Below are positions 41,252-48,981 of a DNA stretch of 64,000 nucleotides, one piece after another. The stretch covers positions 2,369,411 to 2,433,410 of the forward strand of contig NZ_LT906662.1 in assembly GCF_900205865.1 (NCBI RefSeq). Direction: 5' to 3'. Position 1 is the first letter of the stretch; every line of letters starts with the position of its first letter. Origin of the DNA: Thermoanaerobacterium sp. RBIITD. Lineage in GTDB: Bacteria; Bacillota; Thermoanaerobacteria; Thermoanaerobacterales; Thermoanaerobacteraceae. The translations under genes were made by a program, and so were the position numbers. The notes under the pieces were generated by a model. That model had not been told where the DNA came from, made no database searches, and worked only from the letters and a program-made list of their open reading frames with translations.

Positions 41252-43951
41252 TTATATTACATTAAATAATGTATCTTTTTCCTGGAAAAATCTCATTACA
41301 TAGCATATTTCATCATCAGGAATTTTAATCGAATATTTAGTATTTAGGTAGTTTAGTGATTGCTTGACAACATTATACAAAGATATATTGTTTTTAATAT
41401 ATTCTTCTTTGTCTAGAAATTCTATACTTTTCTCGCCTTTTTTGATTCTGCTTACCATGAAAGCAAAATGAAGTATAATACCCAGCAACATGTCATCATC
41501 GAAGTAAACGGAAAGTGTATCACACAGCTTCATGATGGTACTTTGTATATCGCTGTACAGCTCTTCTCCGTCAATGTTGTCTATATTTTCTTTTAGAACA
41601 TACCCCATTTTAAGCAATGTTGTCTTGATATCTACGATTTCTTGTAATTCTTTAATGACTTTTAAACTTAAAACGTCATTCATGCTGTACTGCCTAATGT
41701 TTGTATCCAGTGGGAATGATGATACGATAAATGCAATTTCCATATTTTCCTGTATTTCTTCTATTTTCTGCATGGTTATATGCTTATCGAGGCAGTTTAT
41801 CGGAATAATTTCAAAGAGATCTTTATCAAATTTTAAATTGTTCTTTAAAAAGCTTTTAATTGCAACAGATGCACCTTCACCAGTAAGGCATGCGGTTACA
41901 ATTGCGATTTTCTTTTTGCCGCTTATTAGTGGAGCAAAATCTATATTGTTTTCTATATACGAGTTTATAGCTTGGACACTCATATATATATTGTTAAGAG
42001 GCATACCAAGTAATGCTTTCCTTGTTGCTTCTATAACGTGGAGAGTTGAAATAAGCGGAATTACTTTTACAGGTATGTTAAATTCCTTTTCAATTGTTTC
42101 ACCAAAAGTCGTAAGAGATCCCATATCTACCAGCAAGAGATATCCTGCTTGATTCATGTCGCTTTTTACATAGTTTTTGAGGGCTTCTAAAACCTCTAGC
42201 GGACTTTTGTCTAAATGAGCGTCAATTCCAATTGCATAATTTTCTCCTAATAATTTGTTTGCAACGTCTGCCATTGATGTCGCTGTTGAATTGCCGTGGG
42301 CAATTATTATAACTTTAACTTTTCCGAACTGTTTGCTGATGCATTCTTTGTCAGAAATAAGAAATATAGTTATAAATCCTGCTTCATCCTCCGGTATTGA
42401 CGTATTTAAATACTTTTCGATGATTTTCTTAGATTGCATCGCTACTTCAAATTCTTTTGGGTATAATTGCTTAATTTTTGACAGTTGAGGATTTACAATA
42501 GGCTTATTTTTGTTGACCCTTTCAATAAGCGTGTTTAAGTGCAAAGCAAGTGCAGTATAGCTGTTTTGGCTAAGCTCTTTCCCAAGAAGTTCGGATACGA
42601 GCTCAGCAATCCTGTCTGTAATGTTTATTATGTCTTCTCCTAAGATATGAATTAAATTCTGTTTGTTTTTCTCCTCAGTTATACCATATATCTGCTTGTG
42701 AAAGTACTTTGCTATGTCTTTTTCCAAAATTGATTCAATGTCTATATCAGATATACCTTTTGCTTTTAGCTGCCTCAATCTATCATTTATTATCTCGTAA
42801 ATGCTGTTATCATTAGATGCGGTTGGAATTTCCTCTGTTTCATTTGTAGGGGAAAATTTAAAAAACTCTATATCGTCACCTATGACTTCGTTCCACAGCA
42901 TTCTATGCTGTTTATCTGTGTATAGTCCTTTCTTTATATAATCTGGCAAGTCTCTACTGCAGATCCTTATGTCATTTTTCTTATTAGTCAAAAATTCTGA
43001 ATAGACTTTTGCACATATAAGCTTGACATCGCTTTCTAATTGACCGATGTTGTTTGGACAGTCATAGGAGCAAAATGCCCTCATGGAATTCAGCGACACA
43101 AAGATATCCCTGTTTAATTTTATGCTTTCGTGTTTAAAAAACCTTTTTAGAAGGTAAAATCTTTCTTCTAAAGTCCTTTCTCTAAGTGGCGGTATTTTAA
43201 TTATCATCGGTATTCTTCTTGTAAATGTATTTAAAAGGGATGAAGAAGGATCCTCAGTCGTAGCTGATATGATCAGTACATCAGATGTCCGATTTTCTAC
43301 GTCGCCGACTCTTCTAAAATACCCTGTATCAAGAAAAGTAAATAATATTTCTTGTCCTTCAGGTGGCAAACGGTGTACTTCATCGAGGAATAAGATTCCG
43401 CCATTTGCTTTTTCTATAAGTCCTTCTTTGTCTGTATCAGCGCCTGTATATGCTCCTTTTTTAACCCCAAAAAGTTGAGCCGTCAAAAGCTGAGGGTTGT
43501 TGCTGTAGTCTGCACAGTTAAAGGCTATAAAAGGAGCGTCAGGCTTTTTTACTCCCATATCAATGGCATACTTGTGCATTATTCTCGCAAAAGTAGATTT
43601 TCCTACGCCTGTTTCACCTAATATTAAACAGTGGATTCCCTTGGGAGGATACAAAATAGCAGCTTTTGCCTGCTCGCCAGCTTGTTTCAAACTGATATTA
43701 TTTTTAATCAGCATATCCAGCTCGTACAATTTGCTGTCATTTGAGTTGCTGTTGGTGCTGTTAAATACAGGTGAAAAAAGTACTGGTCTGCCGTCTGACT
43801 TTATGACTTTTCCTTCCTTGCACAAAAGATTTAATTCATGACTAACGTTTGCTCGAGACATATTTAACTCATTTGCTAATGTCATAGCATCTATACCGTT
43901 CCCATTGCTTAACTCTATTAATTTTTTTAAAATCAAGTCTTTTCTTTTCAA
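41252..43951 (-). CDS. LevR-type sigma-54-dependent activator with PRD and EIIA domains
   Basis: 899 residues from the TTG at 43951, chosen because AAAGGGGATC lies 9 bases upstream; the frame is open to an ATG at 43972 that lacks a ribosome site. Domains: DNA-binding HTH at about 5-55 (MTLANELNMSRANVSHEL); AAA+ sigma-54 interaction domain with Walker A GETGVGKS (112-119), GAYTGA (166-171, a variant of GAFTGA) and Walker B GGILFLDEVH (184-193); a PRD; a mannose-type EIIA domain containing IIAHGNSTATSMAD; and a second PRD-like C-terminus. PTS phosphorylation of histidines in the PRDs and EIIA controls its activity. It is divergent from a PTS operon with a sigma-54 promoter, its evident target. 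Confidence 0.92.
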   Translation of the reverse strand: MKRKDLILKKLIELSNGNGIDAMTLANELNMSRANVSHELNLLCKEGKVIKSDGRPVLFSPVFNSTNSNSNDSKLYELDMLIKNNISLKQAGEQAKAAILYPPKGIHCLILGETGVGKSTFARIMHKYAIDMGVKKPDAPFIAFNCADYSNNPQLLTAQLFGVKKGAYTGADTDKEGLIEKANGGILFLDEVHRLPPEGQEILFTFLDTGYFRRVGDVENRTSDVLIISATTEDPSSSLLNTFTRRIPMIIKIPPLRERTLEERFYLLKRFFKHESIKLNRDIFVSLNSMRAFCSYDCPNNIGQLESDVKLICAKVYSEFLTNKKNDIRICSRDLPDYIKKGLYTDKQHRMLWNEVIGDDIEFFKFSPTNETEEIPTASNDNSIYEIINDRLRQLKAKGISDIDIESILEKDIAKYFHKQIYGITEEKNKQNLIHILGEDIINITDRIAELVSELLGKELSQNSYTALALHLNTLIERVNKNKPIVNPQLSKIKQLYPKEFEVAMQSKKIIEKYLNTSIPEDEAGFITIFLISDKECISKQFGKVKVIIIAHGNSTATSMADVANKLLGENYAIGIDAHLDKSPLEVLEALKNYVKSDMNQAGYLLLVDMGSLTTFGETIEKEFNIPVKVIPLISTLHVIEATRKALLGMPLNNIYMSVQAINSYIENNIDFAPLISGKKKIAIVTACLTGEGASVAIKSFLKNNLKFDKDLFEIIPINCLDKHITMQKIEEIQENMEIAFIVSSFPLDTNIRQYSMNDVLSLKVIKELQEIVDIKTTLLKMGYVLKENIDNIDGEELYSDIQSTIMKLCDTLSVYFDDDMLLGIILHFAFMVSRIKKGEKSIEFLDKEEYIKNNISLYNVVKQSLNYLNTKYSIKIPDDEICYVMRFFQEKDTLFNVI

Positions 43952-44042
43952 CTTAAAGATCCCCTTTACCATAAATAACTTTCTATACCTATATCCTATT
44001 ATATATTTCGCGACAAGTTTTTCAATAGTGATTTACTGGATT

Positions 44043-44180
44043 AAACACTATCGAAACATTAAAACACTAAGAAAAATTGATAAAACAATATGCAGATTTT
44101 TATTAAACACTAAAAAACGCTGTTTATTTTAATATGTTTTGATAGGGTAAAATGCGGCGTTTCTTCATGTTTTAGTGTTT
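44043..44180 (+). promoter_or_regulatory. Repeated octamer, candidate upstream activating sites
   Basis: AAACACTA occurs at 44043-44050, 44062-44069 and 44105-44112 on the forward strand and inverted as TAGTGTTT at 44173-44180, directly against the -24 element. All four lie between the LevR-type gene and the PTS operon, the right place for enhancer sites of a sigma-54 activator. Confidence 0.6.
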
Positions 44181-44196
44181 TGGCATGGTTTTTGCA
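44181..44196 (+). promoter_or_regulatory. Sigma-54 (-24/-12) promoter of the PTS operon
   Basis: TGGCATGGTTTTTGCA matches the sigma-54 consensus TGGCACG-N4-TTGCA with GG and GC in correct spacing. It ends 55 bp before the EIIA start. With the divergent LevR-type activator this makes a complete RpoN-dependent regulatory unit. Confidence 0.92.
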
Positions 44197-44251: not shown

Positions 44252-44584
44252 ATGGATTTGCAGCAAATAGTTATGGAAATCATTATACAATCAGGTGAAG
44301 CAAGGGCATATGCACACGAAGCGCTTAGAAAGGCGTATGAAGGCGAATTTGAAGAAGCTGAAAAACTTATGTCACAGGCCAATGAAGCTATCGAAAAAGC
44401 ACATAATGTGCAGACCAGCATGTTGCAAAAGGAAGCATCAGGTGAAAAACTGGAATTTTCTATATTATTTGTTCATTCACAAGATCATCTTATGACTGCT
44501 ATATCAGAAAAAAACCTTATCTCGGAGATCATTGAATTAAGGAAGATGTTAGAACCAGTTCTTCATACATGTGTGACAAAATAA
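44252..44584 (+). CDS. PTS system lactose/cellobiose-type EIIA
   Basis: 110 residues, a complete all-helical EIIA of the Lac family that forms trimers. The phosphorylated histidine lies in ILFVHSQDHLMTA (H75 or H79; the family alignment would decide). It passes phosphate from HPr to EIIB. SD AAGGAGGAAAATAAT. First gene of the sigma-54 operon; EIIB follows only after an inserted GrdB-like gene, which departs from the normal celABC order. Confidence 0.92.
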   Translation: MDLQQIVMEIIIQSGEARAYAHEALRKAYEGEFEEAEKLMSQANEAIEKAHNVQTSMLQKEASGEKLEFSILFVHSQDHLMTAISEKNLISEIIELRKMLEPVLHTCVTK

Positions 44585-44614: not shown

Positions 44615-45145
44615 ATGATTAAAGCGGTACAATTCTTAAACCAGGTTCAGGCTGGATACGGAACAGATGAAAAAATGAATATGGAACCTCAATCCCAATT
44701 TGGTGCTATAGGATTGGGAATGTTATTAAAAAACACCATGATGAGAAACGGTGGGGATATAATTGGTACCGTAATATGTGGTGATAACTATTTTCTTGAA
44801 AATAAAGACGAAGCTATTGAAAAAATATTAACCATGATAAAACAATTTAATCCGGACGTAGTTATATGTGGTCCTGCATTAAATTACAAAAGATACGGTG
44901 ATTGCTGTGGATATTTGACAGAAGCAGTTATTGAAAAGTTGGACATTCCGGCTTTTGCTGCCATGTCGAAGGACAATACAGGTACAGAATTATTTAGAAA
45001 AAAGATATACATCATAGAGACTCCAAATAGAGGAGGCATTGGACTAAATGATTCTCTGAGAAAAATATCGAAATTTGCAGTGAAATTGGCACAAGGACAA
45101 CCCATAGGATCACCTGAAGAAGAAGGGTATTTCCCACAGGAATAG
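44615..45145 (+). CDS. Glycine/betaine reductase component B-like protein
   Basis: 176 residues, resembling only the N-terminal part of GrdB/GrdF, the substrate-binding selenoprotein subunits of glycine, sarcosine and betaine reductases. Matching blocks are KAVQFLNQVQAGYGTDEK, GDIIGTVICGDNYFLENKDE, NPDVVICGPALNYKRYGDCC and the terminal IGSPEEEGYFPQ. The C-terminal selenocysteine domain is absent and no in-frame TGA readthrough is suggested: the stop is TAG. Cysteines are found at VICGD, VVICG and GDCCG. No GrdA, GrdC/D or PrdA-like genes are nearby. Its position between EIIA and EIIB implies a role linked to sugar uptake or its regulation. Function unknown. SD TTAGGAGGGTAAC. Confidence 0.75.
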   Translation: MIKAVQFLNQVQAGYGTDEKMNMEPQSQFGAIGLGMLLKNTMMRNGGDIIGTVICGDNYFLENKDEAIEKILTMIKQFNPDVVICGPALNYKRYGDCCGYLTEAVIEKLDIPAFAAMSKDNTGTELFRKKIYIIETPNRGGIGLNDSLRKISKFAVKLAQGQPIGSPEEEGYFPQE

Positions 45146-45320: not shown

Positions 45321-45629
45321 ATGCTTAAGATTATTCTCTTTTGCTCTTCAGGTTCATCGACAAGCATGTTAATTGGCAGAATTGAAGAGGCAGCAAAAGC
45401 AAGAGGTATAGAGGTCGCTGTTGATGCATACCCTGAAGCACAGATGGAAAAATACGTTGAAGAAGCGGATGTAGTTCTCTTAGGTCCGCAAGTAAAATTC
45501 ATACTGCCAAAAGCAAAGAAAATATGCAGTGAAAAAGGTGTACCTGTAGATGTGATAAATCCAGTCGTCTACGGTATGATGGATGGAGAAAAAGTATTAG
45601 ACCAAGCTTTAAGCATGGCTAATAAATAG
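45321..45629 (+). CDS. PTS system lactose/cellobiose-type EIIB
   Basis: 102 residues from the ATG at 45321, supported by AAAGGAGGGAAAACGTTA; an upstream TTG in frame at 45300 is part of the ribosome-site region. Active-site cysteine C8 in ILFCSSGSSTSML, the classic phospho-Cys loop of the family. It receives phosphate from EIIA and phosphorylates the incoming sugar on EIIC. Cytoplasmic. It lies 59 bp before the EIIC gene. Confidence 0.93.
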   Translation: MLKIILFCSSGSSTSMLIGRIEEAAKARGIEVAVDAYPEAQMEKYVEEADVVLLGPQVKFILPKAKKICSEKGVPVDVINPVVYGMMDGEKVLDQALSMANK

Positions 45630-45688: not shown

Positions 45689-47014
45689 ATGAGTAAGTTT
45701 ACAGATTCGCTTGAAGAAAAATTGATGCCTATAGCAGGTAAAATTTCTGAAAATAGGTACTTGACATCAATTCGTGATGGCTTTATGCTCGCTGTTCCAC
45801 TTATCACAATAGGTGCAGTTTTCTTGTTGCTGGCGTTTTTGCCTATACCTGGTTACTCCGATTTTATGGCAAAGACATTTGGACCAAACTGGAATACATT
45901 CTTTATGAGGCCCTTTGAGGCTACAATGTCAATAATGAGCATATTTGTAGTATTTGGCATTGCATACAGCCTCGCAGGGCATTACAAAATTGATGGTTTA
46001 AACACGGCTGCAACTGCACTTGTTGCATTTTTGATATTTACGCCGTTTATAATTAATTATACACCTGAAGGCGCTAAAAAAGCAATTGAAGTAAGTGGCG
46101 GCATACCAGTTGACTGGATGGGCTCAAAAGGTTTATTTGTTGGTATTTTAACAGCAATTTTGTCAGTGGAAATCGTAAGGTTTGTCGTAAAAAGAGGCTG
46201 GGTAATAAAGATGCCAAAAGGTGTTCCACCTGCAGTTGAAAAGGCTTTCTCTGCATTGATACCTGCGGCTATAGTCGCTATCATCATTGATGTAATAAGA
46301 ATGCTGTTTGCTATGACATCTTATGGCACAATACATCAATTTATCTACACTGTATTGCAGATACCTTTGACAAGACTTGGTGATACACTGCCTGCTACGT
46401 TGATTGCTAACTTCTTCGAAGGACTTTTCTGGTCATTTGGTATACATGGTGCAAACGTAGTTGGATCTGTTATGGGACCAATATGGTTAGCACTTGCAGC
46501 CGAGAACTTGCAGGCATTCCAAGCTGGTCACCCAGTTCCACACATCATAACACAGCAGTTCCACGATATGTACATGCTAGTAGGTGGTTCAGGAAGCACA
46601 TTAGGACTTGTACTTGCTATGCTTTTCTTCTCAAAATCAAGACAGGTTAAGACAGTTGGAAAGCTTGCTATAGTTCCAGGTTTATTTAACATCAATGAAC
46701 CGGTAATATTTGGCTTGCCAATTGTTTTGAACCCTATAATGGTTATACCATTTATATTGACACCTATGATTTTAGCTACTTTGACTTACATTGTAATGTC
46801 AATAGGTTTGGTTGGATATCCAACAGGCGTTGTAATACCATGGACTACACCACCTATTATCGGAGGACTTTTGGTCTCAGGTTTTAGTGGTGCTGTATGG
46901 CAGATAATTGAATTAGTGATTTCATTCTTCATATACTTGCCATTCTTAAGAGTTGTAGATAGGCAGTACCTTGAGCAAGAGCAAGCAATGGCTGTTGAAA
47001 GCCAAAAAGGCTGA
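45689..47014 (+). CDS. PTS system lactose/cellobiose-type EIIC permease
   Basis: A 441-residue membrane component with about ten helices. Family marks are SIRDGFMLAVPLITIGAVFL near the front, GIHGANVVGSVMGPIW, GSGSTLGLVLAML and the conserved INEPVIFGLPIVLNP segment involved in sugar binding. It translocates a beta-glucoside such as cellobiose or gentiobiose and delivers it as the 6-phosphate. The GH1 enzyme of the operon would hydrolyse the product. SD ATAAGGAGTGTTATAAA. A 16-bp hairpin follows. Confidence 0.93.
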   Translation: MSKFTDSLEEKLMPIAGKISENRYLTSIRDGFMLAVPLITIGAVFLLLAFLPIPGYSDFMAKTFGPNWNTFFMRPFEATMSIMSIFVVFGIAYSLAGHYKIDGLNTAATALVAFLIFTPFIINYTPEGAKKAIEVSGGIPVDWMGSKGLFVGILTAILSVEIVRFVVKRGWVIKMPKGVPPAVEKAFSALIPAAIVAIIIDVIRMLFAMTSYGTIHQFIYTVLQIPLTRLGDTLPATLIANFFEGLFWSFGIHGANVVGSVMGPIWLALAAENLQAFQAGHPVPHIITQQFHDMYMLVGGSGSTLGLVLAMLFFSKSRQVKTVGKLAIVPGLFNINEPVIFGLPIVLNPIMVIPFILTPMILATLTYIVMSIGLVGYPTGVVIPWTTPPIIGGLLVSGFSGAVWQIIELVISFFIYLPFLRVVDRQYLEQEQAMAVESQKG

Positions 47015-47093: not shown

Positions 47094-47603
47094 ATGAGTG
47101 TTTTGGAAGAGCTAAAAATAAGCTTGTTTATGCCTCAAAATTACAAAAGACTAAAAGGCGAATCTATAATCAAACTTCTCAGGTTTGATCTTATCTTGAC
47201 GATTTTTGGTGTAGTTTATTTAACACTTATTAAACTTATAATGTCACTATTTACAGGTAATTTTTCAGTGTTTTTAAATAGCTATTCACAACTATCATTT
47301 AAAAATATTGTATCTTCACTACTATTTCTGTATATTGGATTGATAGCATCGTCACTTGTACTATCACTTGTCTTTTATGTTGTGGCACTTCTCAAAAAGC
47401 AAAAAGAATTAAGCTATTACGATTTGATAGTTTATGCAACACATGCATTGACAATATGCGTAGTATTAGAAGAATTCTTTGGACCATTAGTGATAATATT
47501 TTCCATAGGTTATTTTTTAATATCACTAGGTGGGGAAAAATTTATCGCAAATTATGTGACTAACAAAACAAGAGGAGGAAGGAAAAATGGCAAAAGAATA
47601 TAA
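47094..47603 (+). CDS. Small integral membrane protein of the PTS operon, unknown function
   Basis: 169 residues. Strongly hydrophobic segments at about 29-52, 71-97, 111-125 and 127-143 suggest four helices, with a positively charged tail ending in RGGRKNGK. It has some likeness to DUF1189/Yip1-like small membrane proteins but I cannot name the family with confidence. SD AAGGAGATAAAATTT. Its end overlaps the start of the GH1 gene by 17 bp, so it is translated together with it and must be part of the operon. Possible roles: accessory to EIIC, or a membrane sensor. Confidence 0.7.
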   Translation: MSVLEELKISLFMPQNYKRLKGESIIKLLRFDLILTIFGVVYLTLIKLIMSLFTGNFSVFLNSYSQLSFKNIVSSLLFLYIGLIASSLVLSLVFYVVALLKKQKELSYYDLIVYATHALTICVVLEEFFGPLVIIFSIGYFLISLGGEKFIANYVTNKTRGGRKNGKRI

Positions 47604-48981
47604 ATTTCCAGAAAATTTTTGGTGGGGCTCTGCCACATCTGCAACTCAAATAGAAGGTGCTGCAAGTGAAGATGGAAAAGGTATGAATGTATGGGATTAT
47701 TGGTACAAACAGGTACCAAACCGCTTTTTTAATGGTGTTGGACCTGAAGTAACATCCGATTTTTATCACAGGTATAAAGATGACATAAGATTGATGAAAG
47801 AAATAGGGCACAATTCATTTAGATTTTCAATATCGTGGTCAAGATTGATTCCAGGTGGAGTAGGTGAAGTAAACAAGAAGGCGGTAGATTTCTACAATAA
47901 TGTAATAAATGAGCTTTTAGAAAATGGTATTATGCCTATAGCTACTTTGTTTCACTTCGATATGCCGATAGAAATGCAGCACATTGGAGGTTTTGAAAGC
48001 CGTCAAGTCTTGGAAAATTACAAAAACTATGCTAAGACATGCTTTGAGCTTTTTGGAGACAGAGTGAAAAGGTGGATTACATTTAATGAGCCCATAGTTC
48101 CAGCAGAAGGAGGATACCTTTATAACTTTCATTATCCAGACATTGTGGATTTTAAGAAAGCTATACAGGTGTGTTTCAATACGGTTTTAGCAAGTGCAAT
48201 GGTAATAAACGAATTCAGAAAATTAAATATAAAAGATGGAAAAATCGGAATTGTATTAAACCTTACTCCATCATATCCTCGGAGCAATCATCCTGCAGAT
48301 CTTAAGGCGGCAGAGATAGCTGATCTTCTCTTCAATAGAAGCTTTTTAGATCCATGTGTAAAAGGAGAATATCCTGAGAAACTTGTAGAGCTTCTAAAGA
48401 GTTACAATCATTTACCGGTGTATACTGAGGATGATCTTGAGCTTATAAAAAACAATACTGTTGACTATCTTGGAGTAAATTACTATCAGCCAAGAAGAGT
48501 CAAAGCAAAAGAAAATATGCCCAATCCATACGGCGTATTTACGCCTGACTGGTTCTTTGATGAGTACATCATGCCGGGAAGAAGAATGAATCCGTATAGA
48601 GGATGGGAGATATACGAAAAAGGTATATATGACCTACTCATAAATGTGAGGGACAACTACGGAAACATAGAGTCATATATCTCCGAAAATGGCATGGGTG
48701 TAGAGGGAGAAGAGCGCTTCATAAAAGACGGCATAATCCAAGACGATTACAGGATAGACTTTATCAAAGGCCATTTAAAATGGCTTTATAAGGCAATAGA
48801 AGAAGGATGCAACGTAAAAGGATACCACCTGTGGTCTTTCATGGATAACTGGTCATTCTTAAATGCGTATAAAAACCGCTATGGACTCGTTTCTGTGGAT
48901 TTAGCTACACAAAAAAGGACTATCAAGAAAAGTGGATATTGGTTTAAAGAGTTAGCAAAAAATAATGGATTTAGTGAATAA
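47587..48981 (+). CDS. GH1 6-phospho-beta-glucosidase
   Basis: 464 residues, complete GH1 barrel. N-terminal FPENFWWGSATSATQIEG signature; acid/base E168 in ITFNEPI; nucleophile E367 in YISENGM. In the pocket segment DNWSFLNAYKNRYGL a serine (S423) replaces the glutamate of true beta-glucosidases, and Y432 is kept, as in phospho-glycosidases; the lysine is shifted by one place (K429). Together with the PTS genes upstream this points to hydrolysis of cellobiose 6-phosphate or a similar phospho-disaccharide. Cytoplasmic. SD AGAGGAGGAAGGAAAA lies inside the preceding gene. Last gene of the operon. Confidence 0.88.
   Translation: MAKEYKFPENFWWGSATSATQIEGAASEDGKGMNVWDYWYKQVPNRFFNGVGPEVTSDFYHRYKDDIRLMKEIGHNSFRFSISWSRLIPGGVGEVNKKAVDFYNNVINELLENGIMPIATLFHFDMPIEMQHIGGFESRQVLENYKNYAKTCFELFGDRVKRWITFNEPIVPAEGGYLYNFHYPDIVDFKKAIQVCFNTVLASAMVINEFRKLNIKDGKIGIVLNLTPSYPRSNHPADLKAAEIADLLFNRSFLDPCVKGEYPEKLVELLKSYNHLPVYTEDDLELIKNNTVDYLGVNYYQPRRVKAKENMPNPYGVFTPDWFFDEYIMPGRRMNPYRGWEIYEKGIYDLLINVRDNYGNIESYISENGMGVEGEERFIKDGIIQDDYRIDFIKGHLKWLYKAIEEGCNVKGYHLWSFMDNWSFLNAYKNRYGLVSVDLATQKRTIKKSGYWFKELAKNNGFSE

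Follow-up and report, generated by a model that had tools for sequence, protein, structure and literature searches.

A stand-alone GrdB-like protein is linked to one clade of lactose/cellobiose-family PTS permeases

Why should a relative of a glycine reductase subunit be encoded in the middle of a sugar transport operon? The question is raised by a gene of Thermoanaerobacterium found in a 64 kb stretch of DNA (hereafter the window), where it stands within an operon for a lactose/cellobiose (Lac)-family PTS (Table 1). We find that this GrdB-like protein is not a reductase subunit. It genuinely serves one clade of Lac-family PTS permeases as an accessory, a reading to which we assign a probability of roughly 95%.

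Table 1. The GrdB-like gene, its operon and the upstream control region in the window.
Feature	Position	Strand	Details
LevR/DagR-type sigma-54 activator, divergent	41252..43972	-	Sigma54_activat 147.6 bits; two PRD
Candidate upstream activating sequences, four copies of AAACACTA	44043..44180	three +, one -	
-24/-12 sigma-54 promoter, TGGCATGGTTTTTGCA	44181..44196	+	TGGCAT-N5-TTGCA
PTS EIIA, lactose/cellobiose family	44252..44584	+	PF02255, 124.6 bits
Stand-alone GrdB N-domain protein	44615..45145	+	176 aa; PF07355, N-terminal half; GGAGG upstream
PTS EIIB, lactose/cellobiose family	45321..45629	+	PF02302, 77 bits
PTS EIIC	45689..47014	+	TIGR00359 (cellobiose IIC) 529.7 bits, over cut-off; PF02378
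Small membrane-like protein, 169 aa	47094..47603	+	PF04893 (Yip1) 15.1 bits, cut-off 28.6
GH1 glycosidase	47587..48981	+	PF00232, 481.6 bits

The Pfam GRDB profile matches residues 2-175 of the protein at positions 2-173 of 347 (E = 5.5e-49) and the chain stops at residue 176, in agreement with an earlier note on this DNA, which had claimed a match to the N-terminal part of GrdB that ends before the selenocysteine domain. Full-length GrdB homologues, the best of which (GrdB/GrdF) are 46-47% identical to the window protein, continue further on to ...TST*GTCTRCG. The N-terminal motif of GrdB, described as YxNx6GGE ... CGD ... GPxF[NF]AGRYG (PMC9751293), reads FLNx6GTD, CGD and GPALNYKRYG in the window protein, and is exact for CGD only. 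Compared with GrdB/GrdF, the selenoprotein B of glycine/sarcosine reductase, the N-terminal domain is homologous, whereas the selenocysteine-containing C-terminal half, the GGE and GPxFNAGRYG motifs and the GrdE partner are missing. GrdE (PF09338) gave no match in the window genome or in four congeneric species, and was detected in 6/6 full-length-grdB genomes of the same search; the window genome likewise holds no second GRDB match and no full-length GrdB. The earlier statement that other reductase subunits are absent is thereby upheld.

Most of the stand-alone family is already modelled by NF041545 (GrdB_like_no_Se, 'GrdB-related putative oxidoreductase'), whose members resemble the window protein in their single domain, length, lack of selenocysteine and PTS setting, and share group-specific residues with it. 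The window protein combines a single GrdB N-domain with Lac-family PTS linkage and PTS-specific residues, all of them features that we saw in the NF041545 members studied and that NCBI does not give as its definition. Unlike the NF041545 type, however, it scores 164.2 bits, under the curated cut-off of 175 (a relative from UBA5413 scores 153.9; two other loci, L062 and L063, score 262 and 245 bits), it lacks the CF/CY end of NF041545-type members, its EIIC has no acidic tail (see below), and in a tree of GrdB-like proteins its branch is placed between the NF041545 type and full-length GrdB. No convincing relative was found in the PDB by sequence search with the window protein (best E 0.054) or with a profile built from short as well as full-length members (best E 0.013), and a PHROGs search gave no match.

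Since the protein covers half of a Pfam profile, the gene might be a decayed piece of a full-length grdB, or a functionless hitchhiker. It is found in eight Thermoanaerobacterium genomes, the window's included, at 93-99% identity, and Nei-Gojobori dN/dS against the window copy is 0.011-0.048 with dS up to 1.5. The gene is therefore under strong purifying selection, and this substitution pattern refutes decay at the window locus, a possibility that the earlier note had raised against its own proposal. Moreover, AlphaFold2 predicts the window protein to be a complete single domain (mean pLDDT 96.0, pTM 0.92), as it does for one NF041545-type member (mean pLDDT 97.4, pTM 0.92), the stand-alone proteins form a clade apart from full-length GrdB, and the gene recurs in several Bacillota families and one Coriobacteriaceae genome. 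We consider a decayed or functionless gene extremely improbable.

EIIA, EIIB and EIIC of the lactose/cellobiose family lie in one run with scores over cut-off, and the PF02255 match before the gene and the PF02302 match after it place it between EIIA and EIIB, as had been claimed (the EIIB ORF as listed starts at TTG, 45300). The earlier description of a cellobiose-type PTS holds in that EIIC passes TIGR00359; 'cellobiose' is merely a family name, which does not fix the substrate, since other members adjoin glycosylasparaginase, MupG or peptidases. The closest PDB entries to the GH1 enzyme are 4b3k and 5foo (E about 1e-150; 6-phospho-beta-glycosidase/beta-glucosidase), 5foo being deposited as a 6-phospho-beta-D-glycosidase. 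Across Thermoanaerobacterium, the small membrane-like protein is retained between EIIC and GH1. An Rfam search of the operon detected no structured RNA. The window genome has two further Lac-family PTS loci, both without a GrdB-like gene.

Control by sigma-54, also proposed earlier, is borne out by a conserved -24/-12 site and a divergent activator with Sigma54_activat and PRD domains, in which Pfam finds a weak EIIA-man-like domain (30.5 bits) and which scores 506 bits with NF047795 (DagR), under that model's cut-off. The promoter is the single exact match in 64 kb, with 0.21 expected. It is kept in L064, L065, L096 and L101, other Thermoanaerobacterium being among the conserving genomes, and in L097, the distant Ruminococcaceae operon of UBA5413, where it reads TGGCACGGTTTTTGCT. 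All four copies of AAACACTA in the window fall within the 138 bp before this promoter. They are position-conserved in Thermoanaerobacterium relatives and absent upstream of the UBA5413 operon, and they are candidate activator sites.

A scan of the genomes of 84,980 species, with an alignment of four stand-alone proteins as query, gave 36 loci, two of which (L099 and L102) encode full-length GrdB and were left out; the remaining 34, together with two loci from first searches and the window, make up a set of 37. A Lac-family PTS operon is present at all 37. An automated count placed EIIC nearby at 36 of them, often 10-20 bp from the gene; at the 37th, a Coriobacteriaceae MAG (L089), the missing EIIC was an artefact of ORF calling and was recovered by a frame-correct search, so that BglG, EIIA, EIIB, EIIC, AGA and M20 genes lie upstream of the GrdB-like gene. 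Because the scan query had been drawn from PTS operons, we tested an independent sample of 395 Lactobacillales genomes, in which EIIC lies within 1.5 kb at 30/30 loci fetched, 27 of them new. Conversely, none of 48 full-length grdB loci (some genomes being counted twice) has any PTS, AGA, MupG or M20 gene within that distance. The linkage of the stand-alone gene to these PTS operons is strict. The earlier note had suggested a search for GrdB-like singletons beside Lac-family PTS genes and had named a lack of recurrence as the outcome that would speak against it; the association in fact recurs very strongly. Literature searches that combined GrdB-like genes with PTS turned up no study of the stand-alone family. 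At L075 (8430-8915), a second, divergent GrdB-like gene of 161 aa lies near the contig end, beyond a LevR-type regulator.

The association extends to shared ancestry. In a tree of 59 EIIC sequences, the 33 EIICs that accompany the gene cluster as a single clade (SH-aLRT 89, quick search), within which the window branch (Thermoanaerobacterium and UBA5413) is sister to the other 30, and the deepest split is the same in the EIIC tree and in that of the GrdB-like protein. The window EIIC thus belongs to the same clade as the other EIICs paired with a GrdB-like protein. Pairwise distances of the two proteins correlate at r = 0.79 across 32 loci, and at r = 0.77 in a less redundant set of 25; permutations of the distance matrices gave a maximum r of 0.30, and none reached the observed value. 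The GrdB-like protein has been inherited together with EIIC. The gene is not always present or intact: 7/30 best EIIC matches in Lactobacillales have no GrdB-like gene, and in two genomes (L225 and L226) it is broken with the PTS and AGA frames beside it still open, which excludes an essential role, and an essential transporter subunit was accordingly rejected as a candidate. At L227 the GrdB-like gene is broken and the AGA frame is interrupted too.

In NF041545-type operons, the C-terminus of EIIC is an acidic repeat, for example EEDISFDDLSFDDL. Using a pattern defined after the sequences had been inspected, [ILV][SDN][FL]D, we detected this acidic tail in 57/57 EIICs with NF041545-type partners and in 0/56 outside the clade, in 3/7 in-clade EIICs without the gene, and in 0/3 of the window branch, where the window EIIC ends VESQKG. 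We found no published description of such a tail. Repeats of the form [ILV][SDN][FL]DD[LFI] stand at the EIIC C-terminus in L067, L071-L076, L079, L084 and others. The tail is a candidate docking peptide, and the protein may be a small regulator of the transporter that attaches to EIIC, in the NF041545 branch through the acidic tail, and thereby gates transport or the transfer of phosphoryl groups. Such a role would fit EIIC being the neighbour that varies least (usually at a distance of 10-20 bp), the agreement of the two trees, and a tail that accompanies the gene throughout the NF041545 type, is absent outside the clade and is missing from 4/7 in-clade EIICs without the gene. However, the window clade lacks the tail, so docking through it cannot be general and the tail is not needed for the linkage of gene and PTS; three EIICs retain it without the gene, its definition was made post hoc, and the conserved pocket residues described below favour ligand chemistry over pure docking. 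We regard such a regulator of the transporter as unlikely.

Two confident models predict a Rossmann-like alpha/beta domain. Foldseek gave no hit at E below 0.001 with either model, and the neighbours found by Foldseek and VIA-align share only a generic fold of Rossmann-like or CheY-like type, as in the LacI/CcpA core (with Z about 11), CheY and PurE, none of which stands out; the resemblance to LacI was given no weight as evidence. Residues invariant or nearly so across the stand-alone family are Q10, Q12, G14 and G16 after strand 1, C55 and G56 after strand 2, C85, G86 and P87 at strand 3, S118 after strand 4, and P137, G140, G143 and L144 after strand 5. In the models, they map at or just past the C-terminal ends of the beta-strands, which are the usual ligand site in Rossmann-like folds. 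Among them, Q12, C85, S118, P137, G140 and L144 are common to the NF041545 and window branches and differ in full-length GrdB, which suggests a ligand pocket adapted to its PTS context. Its ligand would most likely be a phosphorylated glycoside or the product of one; K18, K138 and K139 are basic, as a phosphate site would call for, though the window branch retains them only in part.

The earlier note had proposed that two clusters of cysteines, corresponding to C55, C85 and C97/C98, sense redox state and couple sugar uptake to it. GrdB itself is part of a redox system, and C55 and C85 occur in 94% and 97% of NF041545-type members and in 4/4 window-clade sequences. Yet C55 belongs to the ancestral CGD motif, is present in all full-length GrdBs sampled and is replaced by M in Lactococcus; C85 gives way to A in Granulicatella; outside the window clade C97 is always M, and position 98 holds C in just 42%. 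Because these cysteines are not strictly conserved, the proposal is weakened, and the protein moreover occurs in aerotolerant Lactobacillales as well as in strict anaerobes. A thiol redox sensor thus appears very unlikely.

The enzymes encoded beside the PTS bear on what is imported. They vary between loci where EIIC is constant: within 5 kb, M20 genes were counted at 23 of the 37 loci, AGA at 18, MupG at 10, M42 at nine, CutC at eight and GH1 at two, by an automated ORF method that missed some genes, as at L089. By sequence, the AGA of L062 belongs with the glycosylasparaginases, scoring 212 bits with one of solved structure and 129 with isoaspartyl peptidases. PepV together with glycosylasparaginase is a signature of GlcNAc-Asn catabolism in Lactobacillus casei, in which AsnA2 acts on GlcNAc-Asn to free 1-amino-GlcNAc, a compound that decays non-enzymatically (PMC6960285). 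In the alf-2 cluster of L. casei for fucosyl-GlcNAc-Asn, pepV and asnA2 are linked, as in many operons with a GrdB-like gene, although transport is by an MFS permease and not a PTS, and none of the listed genes is GrdB-like (PMC6960285). Closer still is the ega locus of Enterococcus faecalis, a Lac-family PTS operon like that of the window, in which the glycosylasparaginase EgaG and a Lac-family EIIB/EIIC serve GlcNAc-Asn (Combret et al., via PMC11160706). As described there, ega encodes a glycosylasparaginase and a dipeptidase where the window has GH1 (we found no glycosylasparaginase gene next to the window PTS), it is under GntR control where the window has sigma-54/LevR, and its putative oxidoreductase gene is a pseudogene in OG1RF, whereas the window gene is intact and stands between EIIA and EIIB. 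Because it follows EIIC and is referenced to a paper on selenoprotein B, we take this pseudogene to be the GrdB-like gene. L226 has the ega gene order with a broken GrdB-like gene, and L225 is similar. One branch of the PTS clade has thus already been linked to GlcNAc-Asn, and the ega pseudogene together with the broken copies in L225 and L226 indicates that the GrdB-like protein is not essential there.

These neighbours would also suit an enzyme for chemistry after cleavage, acting through a changed GrdB pocket on, for example, the glycosylamine or amide left from GlcNAc-Asn: glycosylasparaginase-type AGA and PepV-like M20 genes are frequent, and the L. casei enzyme releases just such a glycosylamine (PMC6960285). 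About half of the loci, however, have no AGA within 5 kb and carry MupG, M42 peptidases or GH1 instead, AGA-PTS operons without the GrdB-like protein exist, and the E. faecalis gene is a pseudogene (PMC11160706). We doubt that such an enzyme is the answer. A dependence on glycosylasparaginase was likewise rejected, given the many operons without AGA and the AGA-PTS operons without the gene.

Taken together, the reading that we favour, tentatively and at somewhat less than even odds, is that the accessory protein is a cytosolic ligand-binding domain that acts on, or reports, the phosphorylated glycoside delivered by its EIIC. The cleft at the strand ends would bind this glycoside or its cleavage product, and the protein would then either help to convert it or report its level; in the NF041545 branch it might be held at the permease by the acidic C-terminal tail of EIIC, and it would be helpful yet dispensable. 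Against a ligand pocket stand the purely generic structural matches and the incomplete conservation of K18, K138 and K139 in the window clade. In a bolder combination, to which we give little credence at present, a former reductase domain would serve the PTS clade as an additional soluble partner: it would bind the phospho-glycoside after import and also attach to EIIC so as to gate or channel this substrate, the acidic tail being the docking peptide in one branch. If this is true, the lactose/cellobiose PTS family has a further, new level of control.

The family is not categorically new, since NCBI has modelled it as NF041545 and the ega literature mentions one of its branches. The window represents a distinct variant, with intermediate sequence, the order EIIA-gene-EIIB, sigma-54 control, GH1 and no tail; its branch is deep and separate, and differs in gene order. 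Labels such as 'glycine reductase selenoprotein B' or 'putative oxidoreductase' are misleading for proteins that belong to a sugar transport system, and the association is strong enough for their function to be directly testable. It ties the family to the import of glycopeptide remnants of host origin and of cell-wall sugars by gut bacteria, and draws attention to the tail that one clade of EIIC conserves. Within the biofuel host Thermoanaerobacterium, the gene sets one of three Lac-family PTS loci apart.

Several neighbouring genes merit separate mention. CutC-family genes lie within PTS-glycosylasparaginase operons (L113:806-1495, L116:2853-3545, L117:752-1444 and L077:10667-11341), a setting that suggests a role of this CutC subfamily in glycoside catabolism rather than copper homeostasis; CutC-bearing operons occur both with and without the GrdB-like gene. 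An RDD-family membrane protein is encoded just upstream of EIIB/EIIC in L067, L070-L076, L080 and L082 (for example L075:1325-1906) and recurs in many NF041545-type operons, the window having a different small membrane protein (47094-47603). Finally, tandem M42 aminopeptidase genes directly 3' of the GrdB-like gene (L075:4328-6537 and L084:8540-10688) suggest the import of peptide-bearing glycosides; at L073 (9792-11983), tandem M42 genes follow an M20 gene.
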